From Chthonomonadales bacterium (GTDB taxonomy: Bacteria; Armatimonadota; Chthonomonadetes; Chthonomonadales; CAJBBX01), in assembly GCA_027459625.1 (NCBI GenBank), contig DAIDHP010000001.1, positions 124,001-188,000 of the forward strand: a stretch of 64,000 bases of DNA, given 5' to 3'. Every line of letters begins with the position of its first letter. Within the stretch, counting starts at the first letter, position 1. The notes beneath the pieces were generated by a model. The model did no database searches. It saw only the letters and a program-made list of their open reading frames with translations, and was not told the origin of the DNA. Positions 36,219 through 43,779 of this stretch are shown piece by piece. The position numbers and the translations under genes were made by a program.

Positions 36219-37661
36219 ATGATAAATCATCCCTCTTCACCTCGCCTAACCGGCGAAAAGGTCATTGTTATTGGCGGAGGAGTTGCAGGTCTTGCAGCCG
36301 CCGTCGCATTGGCGGAGGAGGATTTTCGGGTGACTCTGCTGGAAAAACGCGCCACATTGGGCGGCCGAGCATCCTCCTTTACGGATCAGACCACGGGCGA
36401 AATGGTGGATAACTGCCAACATATCACCATGCGTTGCTGCACCAATCTCGAGTTTTTTTACAGAAGGATCGGCGCTTGGGATAAAATACGGTTTTATTCC
36501 AAGCTTACCTTCCTTGATCATCAAGGAAGGCCGGCGGTCATTCAAAACGGATCGCCATTCCCCGCGCCGTTTCACACACTCTTCTCTTTCGCCCGCTTCC
36601 ATCCTCTAAGCCTATCGGAGAAATCATCCGTAGCCAAAGCTCTCATCGCCATTCTCAAGGCGGGGACAAATCCGAAAATGGATTCGGAGAGCATTGGAAA
36701 CTGGCTGCGCAAACAGAAACAACCTGCAAGGGCGATGGCGCACTTTTGGTGCCCCATCCTTGTGAGCGCATGCAATGAGGAACCGGATCGCATCTCCTGT
36801 GAACTTGGATTCAAACTGTTCCGCGATGGGTTCCTATCGAACGCAGAGGCGTACCAAATGGGGGTTCCGAGCGTTCGCCTAAGCGATCTTTATACACAGC
36901 CATCCATTGAAACTCTTTCGGCTTTGGGGGCGGATATACAACTCAAGGTGCATGCGGACGCTCTATCTGTCGCCAATGGGAAGGTGAAATCGGCGACTCT
37001 ATCGGACGGGTCGACAGTATCCGCAGACTATTACCTCAGCGCGGTTCCCTTTGACATCATGCTGAAAATGCTCCCGAATGATATTAGGGTGACGCCCTTT
37101 TTCAAAGATATCAGTCGTTTGGAATATTCACCTATCACCGGAGTGCATCTGTGGTTTGACAAACCGTTTGAAGTGCGGGAACCGCTTGCATTGTTGGATC
37201 GCGATACGCAATGGATTTTTCCGAAAGAGAACACTCAGTCAGATGGGGATAAATTATCAGAAGGGGGGGCTTATCTTGCATTGGTCGTAAGCTCATCGAA
37301 ATCGTTTCTATCTCTCTCCGCTGATGAAATCATTGATATCTGTTTGAAGGAGGTGCAAGAGGCGTTGCCGCAATCCCGATCCGCTCGACTATTGCACGGT
37401 CGGGTAATCAAGGAGAAGAAAGCGACTTTCGCGCCCATTCCGGGAGTGGAATCCCTCCGCCCAAGTCAAACCACTCCCATTGCGAACCTTTTCATCGCCG
37501 GAGACTGGACTCGCACCGGATGGCCCGCCACCATGGAAAGCGCCGCGCGAAGCGGATATCTGGCGGCGGAGCGGATAATGGAAAGGGCGGGACGCCCCAA
37601 GAGCCTGGTTCAACCGGATCTGCCGCCCTCTCGTCTCGCCAAGTGGTTTTTGAGGACGTAA
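36219..37661 (+). CDS. hpnE: HpnE, FAD-dependent hydroxysqualene dehydroxylase/desaturase
   Basis: VIVIGGGVAGLAAAVALAEEDFRVTLLEKRATLGGRASSF; DNCQHITMRCCTNLEFFYRRIG; C-terminal FIAGDWTRTGWPATMESAARSGYLAAE. Confidence 0.93.
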   Translation: MINHPSSPRLTGEKVIVIGGGVAGLAAAVALAEEDFRVTLLEKRATLGGRASSFTDQTTGEMVDNCQHITMRCCTNLEFFYRRIGAWDKIRFYSKLTFLDHQGRPAVIQNGSPFPAPFHTLFSFARFHPLSLSEKSSVAKALIAILKAGTNPKMDSESIGNWLRKQKQPARAMAHFWCPILVSACNEEPDRISCELGFKLFRDGFLSNAEAYQMGVPSVRLSDLYTQPSIETLSALGADIQLKVHADALSVANGKVKSATLSDGSTVSADYYLSAVPFDIMLKMLPNDIRVTPFFKDISRLEYSPITGVHLWFDKPFEVREPLALLDRDTQWIFPKENTQSDGDKLSEGGAYLALVVSSSKSFLSLSADEIIDICLKEVQEALPQSRSARLLHGRVIKEKKATFAPIPGVESLRPSQTTPIANLFIAGDWTRTGWPATMESAARSGYLAAERIMERAGRPKSLVQPDLPPSRLAKWFLRT

Positions 37662-39596
37662 ATCGGGTAGGCGGGGTCATTACTGATCCCGCCTCCCACA
37701 CCACCCGGCATGCGGGTCCGCACCGGGCGGTTCACACCTTCGCAAACGACAGATAACGTTCATACAAGCTGGAGTATCCGCGCAGCGCCAGTCTCTTATT
37801 GGTCAATGCCCTTTTCATTGCCGGTGAGTCCGACGCACGCCAGGGACCGCACCCTTTAAGAGCGATGCCATAAGCCAGATATGGACCCACCCCCGCTTTG
37901 ACCATGTTTATCGCACGGGTGCGCCAGCGTTTCCAGAGCTTCCATTGGTAGCACCGAAGACGCCTGCGTATCCATGAGTCAACGTCCTTAAAGACGCTTG
38001 GCGTGTGGGCGCGCCAAAAGTAGCCCATCCATCCGTCCGTGAAGGAACGTAACTCCGCTATCACCGTATCAAAGCTCACTCCCCGGTTTCGCCGCGTGAT
38101 AGCGCGAACTTTATCCATCATGCGCTTCTTGCTCTTAGCGGATATCAATTGGCGAATATCGCCTTTGAACCGTGCGAGCGTGAAACCCAGAAACTTGCGA
38201 TTGGCAGGATGGTCAACCGCACTCTTCAGCCTGTTGACCTTCAGCTTTAGCACTGTTTCCAGATATCGCGTAACCGTGAGCATCGTTCGTTCCCCGGATC
38301 GCCTGCTCCGAACATAGATATTGCAGTCGTCCGCGTATCGGCAAAACCGATGTCCGCGCCGCTCCAACTCTTTGTCAAGGTCATCCAGAAGGATGTTGGC
38401 GAGCAGTGGTGATAAGGGACCGCCCTGAGGAGTTCCTTCCTCGGTTGCAACCATCACACCATTAAGAAGTACTCCCGCTTCCAGATATCGGCGAATTAGG
38501 CCAAGCAGCCGTTTATCTCCAATACGTTTAGCAAGACGACCCATAAGGATATCATGGTTTACCCGGTCGAAGAACTTTTCAAGGTCAAGGTCCACAACCC
38601 AATTTCCACCTTCCGACATGTGCTTCTTAGCCGCCGAAATTGCGTCATGCGCACTCTTTCCCGGTCTGAAACCATAGCTTGAGGTGGAAAACGTTGGGTC
38701 ATAAAGAGGGTTCAGCACTTGTGATATAGCTTGCTGAACCAGACGGTCTACAACCGTAGGAATGCCAAGAAGCCGCACTCCCCCATCCGGTTTTGGTATC
38801 TCAACTCGTCTTACCGGTTGGGGTTGGTAAGTGCCGTCTAACAGTTCTTTACGAATACGGAGCCAGTGTTCCTTAAGATATGCCTGCAGTTCCTTCACAG
38901 TCATACCGTCTATTCCCGCTGAACCACCATTCGTACGAACTCGCTTTAAGGCCTGGCTCATATTGCTGCGTAGTACAATTGCTTCCATGAGATTCTGCGT
39001 CAAGGTTCGCATGGACGTATCCGCCGGGGATGGTTTAGACCCTTGCGTGGGCTCCGGCAGGACTTCACCAGCATCCTCCCACACGAAGGCCAATTGTTCC
39101 GCGTTAACCGCTGAGTTATTGGTTTTCCGTCTCATTACCACTCCGAGGAAACCTCCGCTCCCTTGTGATTGTGTGTTCCGTACTTCCTCACCGCGTCTCA
39201 CCGCCGGGGTGACATGCTTCGCCAATAAGCGGTTCGCGTTTGATGAGTACTATGACCTCTGCTGACTTCTGACGTCCCTTCCCAGACGGTTACCCGTTTG
39301 GTAGCCTCCTCACGAGGCGGGACGCCAGATCTCCCGGGATAAGTTCATGCACTTTCGTCCCGAACCTGCCGGATTTACCACGAGCCAGTGTTGGAAACCA
39401 CGGGTTTGACTGTCTTTTGCCAGCTCACCCATCGCTCATTGCCTTATATCCGATTTCTGTTCGTCAGGTCGTGACTGTGGCTCCGGCTTCTTTCAGACCC
39501 CACTTCGCAGTGACGCCCTTGCCTTCGCTTAACGGTTACGGTTTCCTGCACCGTAGAGGACTTGCACCTCCGAGAGCATGAACATGCCCGGCATAC
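37662..39596 (-). mobile_element. Group II intron (IIC-like), full length; boundaries inferred
   Basis: 5' end GTATGCCGGGCATG at 39596 directly after terminator T-tract; domain V at 37700-37731; domain VI with candidate bulged branch A at 37668; 3' end ...CCCGAT at 37662; internal RT/maturase. Confidence 0.85.
37732..39225 (-). CDS. ltrA: Group II intron reverse transcriptase/maturase (no obvious endonuclease domain)
   Basis: RT motifs: IPKPDGGVRLLGIPTVVDRLVQQAI, YGFRPGKSAHDAI, DLDLEKFFDRVNHD, GTPQGGPLSPLLANI, CRYADDCNIYVRS; ends after maturase region SSLYERYLSF. Confidence 0.97.
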   Translation of the reverse strand: MAKHVTPAVRRGEEVRNTQSQGSGGFLGVVMRRKTNNSAVNAEQLAFVWEDAGEVLPEPTQGSKPSPADTSMRTLTQNLMEAIVLRSNMSQALKRVRTNGGSAGIDGMTVKELQAYLKEHWLRIRKELLDGTYQPQPVRRVEIPKPDGGVRLLGIPTVVDRLVQQAISQVLNPLYDPTFSTSSYGFRPGKSAHDAISAAKKHMSEGGNWVVDLDLEKFFDRVNHDILMGRLAKRIGDKRLLGLIRRYLEAGVLLNGVMVATEEGTPQGGPLSPLLANILLDDLDKELERRGHRFCRYADDCNIYVRSRRSGERTMLTVTRYLETVLKLKVNRLKSAVDHPANRKFLGFTLARFKGDIRQLISAKSKKRMMDKVRAITRRNRGVSFDTVIAELRSFTDGWMGYFWRAHTPSVFKDVDSWIRRRLRCYQWKLWKRWRTRAINMVKAGVGPYLAYGIALKGCGPWRASDSPAMKRALTNKRLALRGYSSLYERYLSFAKV

Positions 39597-39623
39597 AAAA
39601 AGGGATGCCCGTCGGCATCCCTT
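39597..39623 (-). terminator. Rho-independent terminator AAGGGATGCC-GACG-GGCATCCCTTTTT
   Basis: 10-bp perfect stem with tetraloop and T-tract, downstream of the small zinc-ribbon gene and abutting the intron 5' end. Confidence 0.9.
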
Positions 39624-39645
39624 CGTTTGAAGAAACTCTGTTTAC

Positions 39646-39810
39646 TTAAGCGCTCATCCCGCAACAACGACGAATCATCATCTTCTTGCCGTTAGGAGTC
39701 ATCGTCATAACAACATCTATCTTATTGCCGCAGAATTTGCAAAGCTGAGCGGCAGACTTTGCCTCCTGACGAGCTGCAACGTTTGTTTTAGATTTCTTTA
39801 CATCCGCCAT
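39646..39810 (-). CDS. Small Cys-rich (zinc ribbon-like) protein
   Basis: MADVKKSKTNVAARQEAKSAAQLCKFCGNKIDVVMTMTPNGKKMMIRRCCGMSA; CxxC and CC; strong G-rich RBS before ATG 39810. Confidence 0.65.
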   Translation of the reverse strand: MADVKKSKTNVAARQEAKSAAQLCKFCGNKIDVVMTMTPNGKKMMIRRCCGMSA

Positions 39811-39918: not shown

Positions 39919-42900
39919 TCATCCTGCATTCTCGCTAAGTATTTCCGTATGCCATAAATACGGAATGCCTTCCGGCATGACAGGGGCTATCACGGATGTA
40001 TATTCATGCAATGTGGCTCCCATTACAACATCAAGCGACAATGCGGTATTTGGATAGAATCCTCCAATCCTCCAAAGCCATCCCCATCCTCCAAGACGAT
40101 ACCCCCCGATAAAATCCTTGTCACCGCAAGACACGAGCGTTTGGTGATCGAGTGCAAAACCTTTTGGCAGGCTTCTGTTCGCATTGCACAATTCGCCTTG
40201 AATAAGATTCGCAAGCGTATCGCCCAGCCATTCCCTTCCCATCGGCGTTACGGATAGGACATCCGTGGCATTATCATCACTGTCAATTCCAATGCCAAGA
40301 TAGGCGAGCCCATCGCCTCCCAAGGATTCGGACTGTCCATTCGGAGCGATTGGCTGCGTGAAAGATTGCCCCCCCGTCTCCCACCAGTTCCCTCCATTCC
40401 GAACATAATCACGAATCAGAGCCAGCATATCCTTCCAATGCGATAGTTCATCGACGGCGAATTTCTCTCCATATGGATTGATGATCGTAAGAAACTTATC
40501 CGCACCGGATTTTAACGCATCATCCAACTGTTCTATCGAATTGATCGTCGAAACGCGTATTCCGAGTGCTGATACAGAGCTATTTTTGGATAAGGCGTTA
40601 ACCCAATCCTGCGGTTCCAGCTTTGTCCACGCGAGTTCTCCCATCCACGGTATCTCCAATACGCCAATGCTTGGCGGTTTATCGCTCCATTTGATAGGCG
40701 GAATCGATTTTATCTCCCGAGGGGGCGATATCCTCAAAGTCGCCGCTTTTTTTGAAGGCAGCGTAAACTCAATAGTTTCATTTCCGACCGTTGCGATAGC
40801 CTTTTCGCCGGAATCAAATTTCAATCCATATTTACCGGAATGCAATCGGTTGACTGGCAGGCGCATCTTTTGCTCTTCGGGGGCGTACACCCATAAGCTT
40901 AGCGTTTTCCCGACCCATTCCTGCACAAATGACTGTCTGCCGGAACCGTTTGAACCGCCGTCAATTGACGAGATACTGCCTGCCGACACGTTGCCGCCCT
41001 CCGCAAGGAACCCGTAAGAGGCGATATCATGATCGTTGATATTACGCGGATTGGGTCCTAAATTAGCTAATATTCGGATTTCGCCGTAATTGGAACGAAT
41101 GACACCGTCATCCTCCACTTTCGTGGTGGTTCCCCAGTCATGATCGAATCCAACGACCGCGCCGCCAATATACCTCGCGCATACGGACTTTTGCAGCCTA
41201 TCCAGCCATCGCAGCCATTCCAGTTTCGCCCTATCCTGTAAACTCGAAGCTGATGTGGTGAAACTGAGAGAAAAACCCAATGCCAAAGCCCATGCGAGCG
41301 TCTGATGATTCATTACAAACTGACCCAGATCGTGAAACAGCATCATGGATCTCTGATGAGCTATTCTTTGAGCCAGGGGATACACGCGCCATGTGGTGAC
41401 AGGGTATTGAGTTTTCATTAACCTGCGCCAGGGGGGACCGCCAATGGTCGGAACCAACTCCCATGATAGCCCACAAAGCTGGGTCTCAAACTCGGAAACC
41501 CTATCCCATCCCGCCTCTGTAGAAAGAGGAACGAAATGACTATCCTGGAGACTCTGTGATAGGAGCCCTTCCGTGTAAGCGTAAGGGGTCGGGGATGCCG
41601 GATTCATATCATACACCCATCCCCTCGCCCCTACTTGATCCTGAAACAAAACATCTGAAGGGTAGTCAACCGAGAATTGCCGTCTGATGCGGAGGTTGGC
41701 GGCGCGGACGTCCGGATGCCAGGGACAATCCGTCCAACCATCGTTGGCGTTGTATTTCTCATAAATCGGTTCTCCGTTAAACTGTTTCACCAATGGCGCA
41801 TTGCCGTCCTTTAGGAATGTCGGTCCTTTCGGGTGATCGCACCACCAGGTTGTGTTGGTGTACGGCATTACGAGATGCCCCAAATGATGAGCTTGATCGT
41901 AAAACGCCTTTAACTCCTCGGGTGTTCCGAAATCGGGATTTGGGGGAAGAAGGTCCGGATACTGTTTATCAAAACCGCCATGGATATAGTCGGCGAAATG
42001 AATAAGTGTTGGTACGGGAAGCAGAGATAAATACCGCATCTTCTCTTTGGCGTTGCCTGCGTAATACACAAGAACGGAGCGTTTGAGTTTATCCAATGTT
42101 TCAGGTTTGACTTTATCTTTCAAAAACCGACGAATGTTGTTGCTCTCGCAATATCGCACCAAGCTTTTATCCGAGGGGTCACCAAAACGGATGCAGACGG
42201 AAGGGACATAACCCATTTCATTAGGTTTGAAATAGACGCCATATGTCCGATCGATATACCCTCCTTTGTCATCGCCTCCGCATCCTATATTTCCGGGGAT
42301 GAAAATGTCGGATTTTTGTCTCACCCCTATCCAGGGTTCGGTGTTTTCAGGTTGAATCCGGAACAAGCTGATGGGTGCACCAATGAAGTCCATATGGATG
42401 AAATCAGCGAATAGAGATGGGTATGTTCCGTTGTACTGAAAGTATGTAAGCGGTTGCATTGCGTAAAAGAACGGATACCCGCCGGTTTCGAACCAATTCC
42501 CTCCATCTCGCACGTATTTTCTGATCGCTGCCACGGTCGCAATCATATCCTTGTTCGGTAATGTCGGACATCCCTCGCCGTAAGGATTGATAATCGCCAA
42601 ATAGTCCGATCCATCCAGGGCTGACGCTAATTCCGCCGGTGTGCGAAATGCAATGACTTTGATATCGTTGGATACGGCCGTAGGCAAACCATAAAGCAAT
42701 TGGATCCATTGCTTCACCGTTACCGCCGCCCATCCTCCTGAATCCGGACCGCCCTCCAGAGAGATGACGCCAATCTTTGTTCGCGATGGAGTTCCGGACG
42801 TAAGTCTCTTCAACACCTCGCCGACTGCGTTTAATACGAGGCTTGTCTCCGTATCATCCACCGCTCCCCCGATTCTCCAGATTGATCCGGCGCCGCCAAG

Positions 42901-43779
42901 ATGGTTGCGGGAAAACCAGGAACCATTCGGCGAACCCACAAGCGATTGAAACGAATCGCTCGAGCTTGGGGGGCGGTTCACAACGGCTTTTGAACCGTTG
43001 AATTCCCTGATGACAGTTGAATCCAACCATTTTTCACCCTCATTGGTGACGGTGAGCGGAACGGGCGGATCATCATTGGGTCTCATCGCCGGAGAGGATC
43101 CGAAGACTAAGGCATAGCCTTGCGGTCCGGGGTTCACCTGCTGCCATCCTGCGGGATGGTCCGATGACTGTTTTTGGAAGAATAACGATTGAAAGGCGGC
43201 CCCGACTCCCATATTCCCGTTAATGGGAAATACCATTTCCTTAAGATTTGACGGATCGAATCGCAATCTAGCGGGCAATGAAAAATCAATCACGTTTTTG
43301 GTAACCGATTGAAATTTTGCATTCATAATTAGTTCGTTCCAACGCGGATGAACGCTTACTTTAACTTTTATTTCAGGGCTTGCATAATCAAAAAAAACCG
43401 TATTTTCCTTCGCTTGAACTTTTATCGCAAACAGAGCGTCTTCCTTTCCCTTTGCGAAATCAGAGGATTGGATTATCGTCCCATCCTGGAATTTGGCGGT
43501 CCAAAGACCCGTGGAATCGCTGTTAATGAGATTGGAAATGGAGCCTCTTTTTCCAATGGACAAAATCGATCCATTGGAAGCGCTGAATATAGTTTCGTAT
43601 TCCCCGCATCTAATGGCAATGGCTCCATTCGACTGAATAATAGCTGGTTTGGGGTGCGTTTTTATTATATTATCCGTTGCGGCCAAACTATTCGCATTCG
43701 CGCCTGCGATTGCCGCCATCATACCGGCTTGGATACATTCGCGGCGAGTGATTTGCGCCTTGGATCTCTTCTTGTCCAT
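39919..43779 (-). CDS. Large Tat-exported protein, DUF6259-like/glycosidase-like core with flanking duplicated modules
   Basis: Tat-like RRECIQAGMMAAIAGANA; central barrel-like region; repeated IINPYGE...IR.YVR.GGNW.ETGG and WRIGG modules. Confidence 0.65.
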   Translation of the reverse strand: MDKKRSKAQITRRECIQAGMMAAIAGANANSLAATDNIIKTHPKPAIIQSNGAIAIRCGEYETIFSASNGSILSIGKRGSISNLINSDSTGLWTAKFQDGTIIQSSDFAKGKEDALFAIKVQAKENTVFFDYASPEIKVKVSVHPRWNELIMNAKFQSVTKNVIDFSLPARLRFDPSNLKEMVFPINGNMGVGAAFQSLFFQKQSSDHPAGWQQVNPGPQGYALVFGSSPAMRPNDDPPVPLTVTNEGEKWLDSTVIREFNGSKAVVNRPPSSSDSFQSLVGSPNGSWFSRNHLGGAGSIWRIGGAVDDTETSLVLNAVGEVLKRLTSGTPSRTKIGVISLEGGPDSGGWAAVTVKQWIQLLYGLPTAVSNDIKVIAFRTPAELASALDGSDYLAIINPYGEGCPTLPNKDMIATVAAIRKYVRDGGNWFETGGYPFFYAMQPLTYFQYNGTYPSLFADFIHMDFIGAPISLFRIQPENTEPWIGVRQKSDIFIPGNIGCGGDDKGGYIDRTYGVYFKPNEMGYVPSVCIRFGDPSDKSLVRYCESNNIRRFLKDKVKPETLDKLKRSVLVYYAGNAKEKMRYLSLLPVPTLIHFADYIHGGFDKQYPDLLPPNPDFGTPEELKAFYDQAHHLGHLVMPYTNTTWWCDHPKGPTFLKDGNAPLVKQFNGEPIYEKYNANDGWTDCPWHPDVRAANLRIRRQFSVDYPSDVLFQDQVGARGWVYDMNPASPTPYAYTEGLLSQSLQDSHFVPLSTEAGWDRVSEFETQLCGLSWELVPTIGGPPWRRLMKTQYPVTTWRVYPLAQRIAHQRSMMLFHDLGQFVMNHQTLAWALALGFSLSFTTSASSLQDRAKLEWLRWLDRLQKSVCARYIGGAVVGFDHDWGTTTKVEDDGVIRSNYGEIRILANLGPNPRNINDHDIASYGFLAEGGNVSAGSISSIDGGSNGSGRQSFVQEWVGKTLSLWVYAPEEQKMRLPVNRLHSGKYGLKFDSGEKAIATVGNETIEFTLPSKKAATLRISPPREIKSIPPIKWSDKPPSIGVLEIPWMGELAWTKLEPQDWVNALSKNSSVSALGIRVSTINSIEQLDDALKSGADKFLTIINPYGEKFAVDELSHWKDMLALIRDYVRNGGNWWETGGQSFTQPIAPNGQSESLGGDGLAYLGIGIDSDDNATDVLSVTPMGREWLGDTLANLIQGELCNANRSLPKGFALDHQTLVSCGDKDFIGGYRLGGWGWLWRIGGFYPNTALSLDVVMGATLHEYTSVIAPVMPEGIPYLWHTEILSENAG

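Follow-up and report, generated by a model that had tools for sequence, protein, structure and literature searches.

Between the stop codon of hpnE and the terminator of a small convergent gene, the window (the whole 64,000-nucleotide stretch of DNA analyzed here) carries an intron-like element that fits the seam to the nucleotide. Such a locus raises two questions: what the element is, and whether it landed in a terminator that the two facing genes had shared or instead lies between genes that were not neighbors to begin with. The features on which the answers depend are collected in Table 1.

Table 1. Features of the hpnE-intron locus (positions are those of the window).
Feature	Position	Strand	Evidence or remark
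hpnE (hydroxysqualene dehydroxylase), TAA adjoining the intron 3' end	36219..37661	+	TIGR03467, 445.2 bits; 3' exon matches G001 contig C194
Complete group IIC intron (apparent)	37662..39596	-	1935 nt, GTATGCC...CCTACCCGAT; Rfam matches, genome-wide junctions, sister-genome empty sites
Domains V and VI (bulged A at -7)	37662..37732	-	RF00029, 45.0 bits; fold
Intron-encoded reverse transcriptase/maturase	37732..39135	-	TIGR04416, 423.9 bits; PF00078 and PF08388; start uncertain
Ribozyme D1-D4 region, Rfam RF01998 (group-II-D1D4-1)	39211..39304	-	47.0 bits, E = 7.4e-7
Ribozyme domain I core, Rfam RF02001 (group-II-D1D4-3)	39344..39514	-	124.4 bits, E = 1.2e-26
Intrinsic terminator of the upstream small gene (5' exon and intron target)	39597..39623	-	Hairpin, -20.1 kcal/mol; uninterrupted in G001 contig C84
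54-aa small gene (MADVKKSKTN...); the intron follows its terminator	39646..39810	-	ORF list; synteny with G001 contig C84

Judged from its sequence and predicted folds, the element belongs to group IIC (bacterial class C) and is a retro-intron of full length, apparently intact. The scores against both Rfam models for ribozyme domains I to IV exceeded their gathering cutoffs, and the RF00029 match (gathering cutoff, 40) stopped exactly at the intron 3' end, which directly adjoins the hpnE TAA (37659-37661) and whose terminal AU agrees with the group II AY consensus. Domains V and VI gave a minimum-energy fold of -46.8 kcal/mol (z = -6.26 relative to shuffled sequences) in which the A at position -7 was unpaired. 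The maturase open reading frame (ORF), which may start at the ATG at 39135 or the ATG at 39012 (the longest ORF opens with TTG at 39225), contains RVT_1 and GIIM domains and a YADD motif, and a protein profile search of the maturase for an HNH endonuclease domain gave no match. In a tree of the closest matches, the proteins readable from three further Armatimonadota genomes (G032, G073, and G123), together with a divergent piece from G079, formed one clade with the window maturase (support, 100/99).

The window intron is one of many. In the 114 contigs of the window's genome (G000), we counted 26 junctions at the 5' end of the element and 29 at its 3' end, or about 29 near-identical introns, each directly behind a predicted transcription terminator. 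At every one of the 26 five-prime junctions, a hairpin and a T-run are followed by GTATGCC; the hairpins ranged from -13.3 to -27.0 kcal/mol, with a mean of -20.7, compared with -7.9 for random positions in the same flanks. T occupies position -1 of the 5' exon in 26/26 cases and positions -5, -3, and -2 in 25/26. The 3' ends all read CCTACCC[G/A]AT, and the next base (+1) is T in 27 of 29. The IBS1-like T-run (-5 to -1) and the IBS3-like T at +1 would fit the exon contacts of IIC introns. By simple ORF calls, the closest ORF on the 5' side reads toward the intron, in the same sense, in 24 of the 26 cases, and on the 3' side the nearest ORF is convergent in 16 of 29; because three of these convergent ORFs end within 1 nt of the intron, a tight seam of the hpnE type is not unique. 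The two full copies (that in the window and that on contig C4) differ by one single-nucleotide polymorphism (SNP) and a 2-nt insertion, and the other 24 five-prime ends are identical across their readable 67 to 76 nt. The burst to about 29 copies in this Armatimonadota genome thus appears to have been recent. The 2-base insertion in the C4 copy (L109, ~3307) lies at intron nucleotide 1807 and puts the last part of the maturase out of frame. Three 3' ends (L061, L062, and L063, on contigs C20, C49, and C68) carry GTGTGGTAGG instead of GTGTGGGAGG, a variant also present in an intron remnant of the sister genome, which suggests that there are two intron subfamilies.

That sister genome, G001, is the only close one compared; it belongs to the same genus, and the flanks share roughly 80 to 96% DNA identity. 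Twelve intron sites could be paired in it, of which 11 were empty at the predicted point and 1 held an internally deleted intron, and no target duplication or loss was evident at the well-conserved empty sites. The 11 empty sites fix both ends of the intron. Since the 5' exon and the intron both end in T, they would by themselves allow a one-base shift, an ambiguity settled by the usual G...AY intron ends. Intron remnants with large internal deletions and both termini kept occur in G001 at L269 (5749-6408), L206 (5218-6026), and L219 (6927-7170); the L269 site is also occupied in the window's genome, and the intron family is therefore older than the split between the two genomes.

For the element itself, these results uphold what the initial annotation had claimed. 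It had assigned the intron to group IIC, and the Rfam D1-D4 and domain V/VI matches, the terminator targeting, and a reverse transcriptase/maturase made up of RVT_1 and GIIM only, without the endonuclease domain whose lack had been predicted, all agree with that assignment. The boundaries that it had drawn are confirmed by the 26 and 29 junctions, by the 11 empty sites, and by the covariance-model comparison that it had proposed as a check, in which the RF00029 match ends at the predicted nucleotide 37662. The anatomy that it had drawn by eye for domains V and VI, including the bulged A at -7, is reproduced by the minimum-energy fold, and insertion after terminators is a property of all 26 readable copies, far beyond chance.

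A further remark, that the 5' end departs from the usual motif, turned out to describe a whole clade. The usual consensus for group II intron ends is GUGYG...AY, which is not obligatory. In the window's genome the intron begins with GUAUG in 26/26 copies; in six further genomes of the phylum (G017, G019, G025, G032, G073, and G123), every copy that could be read begins with GTATG or GTACG, and two separate lineages of Bacillota have GTACG, with GTAYG at three Bacillota loci. Because all readable Armatimonadota relatives and two Bacillota lineages share GTAYG, we consider GTATG to be a tolerated 5' splice-site variant, and the departure does not exclude group II membership. When GUAYG introns were set against GUGYG introns by eye at the GGTGNNAGTCC loop close to the 5' end, no compensating change was seen, and a literature search on GUAUG in group IIC introns returned nothing relevant. 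In order-level relatives, the GTACG introns at L099, L100, L102, and L114 (genomes G017, G025, and G019) have 5' flanks in which the customary T-run is missing, a hint that these introns may prefer another kind of target.

The history of the seam is less simple. In the window, the hairpin AAGGGATGCC-GACG-GGCATCCCTT and its T-run are followed directly by GTATGCC at 39596. A consensus terminator scan of the intron site called no terminator, although the fold shows a plain hairpin; by our reading, the greedy stem, with its G-T pairs, consumed part of the T-run. By removing the intron, the initial annotation had rebuilt an ancestral seam, GACGTAA|AAAAAGGGATGCC, in which this terminator stood against the hpnE stop, and had proposed a search for the corresponding empty site in related genomes. 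The nearest genome, G001, does not have the predicted hpnE/GGGATGCC junction. There, hpnE ends GAAGTAAAAAAAGAGGCGAC..., and its stop abuts the terminator of a sigma-factor gene that converges on it, so that the seam reads GAAGTAAAAAAAGAGGCGACATCCC, with another terminator. In the window's genome, contig C31 starts with the sigma-gene terminator, which has an intron behind it (L019). The small-gene region is syntenic with G001 contig C84 (89% DNA identity over 5.4 kb), where the GGGATGCC terminator precedes an unrelated ComM-like region, and that region corresponds, at 91% identity, to the flank with which contig C49 ends; the sigma factor and the ComM-like product were named by eye from their sequences. 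Since G001 has other partners for both flanks, the reconstructed ancestral seam is refuted under misassembly and recombination alike. What survives is the convergent seam at the hpnE stop and the separation of hpnE from a facing terminator, but the terminator and its gene are those of the sigma factor. With hpnE and the sigma gene as the true neighbors, the intron would part hpnE from the facing hairpin, a putative terminator for hpnE, and antisense read-through is plausible. In 28 relatives that are more distant, a search reaching 1.5 kb from hpnE found no sigma gene, so the ancestral hpnE/sigma order is read from G001 alone.

How the two flanks came to be joined can be judged from the other copies. 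The assembly crosses only 2 of the ~29 introns, and both crossings join two different sites as compared with G001: the second crossed copy (C4) is likewise mis-paired, the proper partner of its 5' side being C17 and that of its 3' side C48. All remaining junctions stop at contig ends after ~77 shared bases, which indicates that the assembler was normally unable to cross the intron repeat. Because both crossed copies are mis-paired and the assembler stopped at the other junctions, this pairing of contigs with G001 points to an assembly chimaera, made through the 1.9-kb repeat, as the most likely origin of the window join. Homologous crossing-over between two intron copies, by inversion or a similar event, would also produce exactly the joins seen on C1 and C4, with the 5' side of one site (A) attached to the 3' side of another (B), and identical 1.9-kb copies are good substrates for it. 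Moreover, GC skew is uniform over the window join, with no sign change and hence no support for a misjoin. A real hpnE-intron-GGGATGCC order made in this way is nevertheless unlikely, since neither crossed copy is concordant and nothing evident would have let the assembler get these two right. With only a few sites rearranged, it would be rare for both crossed copies to belong to them, but joins made arbitrarily would nearly always come out discordant. With G001 alone for comparison, the direction of any real rearrangement is not polarisable. We regard as quite unlikely the wider proposal that the joins are real and that recombination among the ~29 introns reshuffles terminators and convergent neighbors across the genome; if they were real, a retroelement that avoids genes would still rewire transcription ends.

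Neither of two other accounts fits well. It is hardly credible that a single insertion split a terminator that the small convergent gene shared with hpnE and that the window still shows the ancestral order: the junction in the window is clean, but G001 holds the two flanks at separate places, each with another partner, and these partners match loose contig ends of the window's genome at ~91 to 95% DNA identity up to the junction. The deviant 5' end and the mostly internally deleted introns of G001 could be taken to mean that the element is a degraded, immobile remnant spread by DNA recombination only. This is very improbable given the intact ORF with YADD, the intact domains V and VI, and the near-identical copies at ~29 unrelated terminators, which together with the exact empty sites argue for recent retro-insertion. 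Taken as a whole, the locus is very probably explained by an intact IIC retro-intron that inserted at a terminator, has recently undergone a burst, and sits in a chimeric window neighborhood.

For such an intron, the excised RNA, together with its own reverse transcriptase/maturase, would reverse-splice into DNA directly 3' of a terminator hairpin, at hairpin-TTTTT|T, and the intron DNA would then be copied by that reverse transcriptase, with priming supplied without an endonuclease and without target duplication or loss. The empty sites give the insertion point; the reverse-splicing route, splicing, and mobility are proposed by analogy with the known family. Group IIC RNA-protein particles reverse-splice at terminator motifs, with endonuclease-free priming (PMC4424553), and IIC ribozymes use hydrolysis almost exclusively when alone and branching with their protein (PMC7161350). 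Because the introns sit in the sense of the terminated gene, they would presumably be transcribed only through read-through.

We therefore regard the window intron as probably an ordinary mobile group IIC intron whose gene pair here is an assembly mistake and not its original neighborhood. Like the group IIC (class C) introns B.h.I1, the O.i. intron, and Ta.it.I1, it combines a compact ribozyme with a reverse transcriptase and X-domain protein that lacks an endonuclease (PMC4424553; PMC7161350), and it shares with them a position directly after terminators, a short T-rich 5' exon contact, and a bulged A in domain VI; unlike them, it has a 5' GUAUG, a high copy number, and an Armatimonadota host. 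Class C-like introns in the Armatimonadota genomes G032, G073 (JANYKG010000017.1), and G123, whose proteins are 62 to 67% identical to the window's, share the 5' GTATG or GTACG and the upstream terminators, in other copies and at other sites. In carrying many terminator-inserting copies, the genome resembles expanded class C genomes, which are mostly Firmicutes (PMC8919778); the phylum differs. Most genomes have at most 3, and more than 10 is rare (PMC8919778, after Leclercq 2011), compared with ~29 here; the record in PMC8919778, across all classes, stands at 101, in Arthrospira platensis. A literature search on Armatimonadetes group II introns returned nothing relevant, and in searchable papers we found no earlier report for Armatimonadota of a recent class IIC burst with exact empty sites. 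The 26 natural target sites and a clade with a GUAYG 5' splice site offer a resource for work on these introns. They also carry a warning: metagenome assemblies may cross such repeats wrongly, and single-copy accounts of gene seams need a sister genome or long reads. Beyond the small gene, the minus strand of the window (39919-43779) encodes a protein of 1286 aa that matches DUF6259 weakly and has, by eye, an apparent internal repeat of two stretches (...IINPYGE...NWxETGG).
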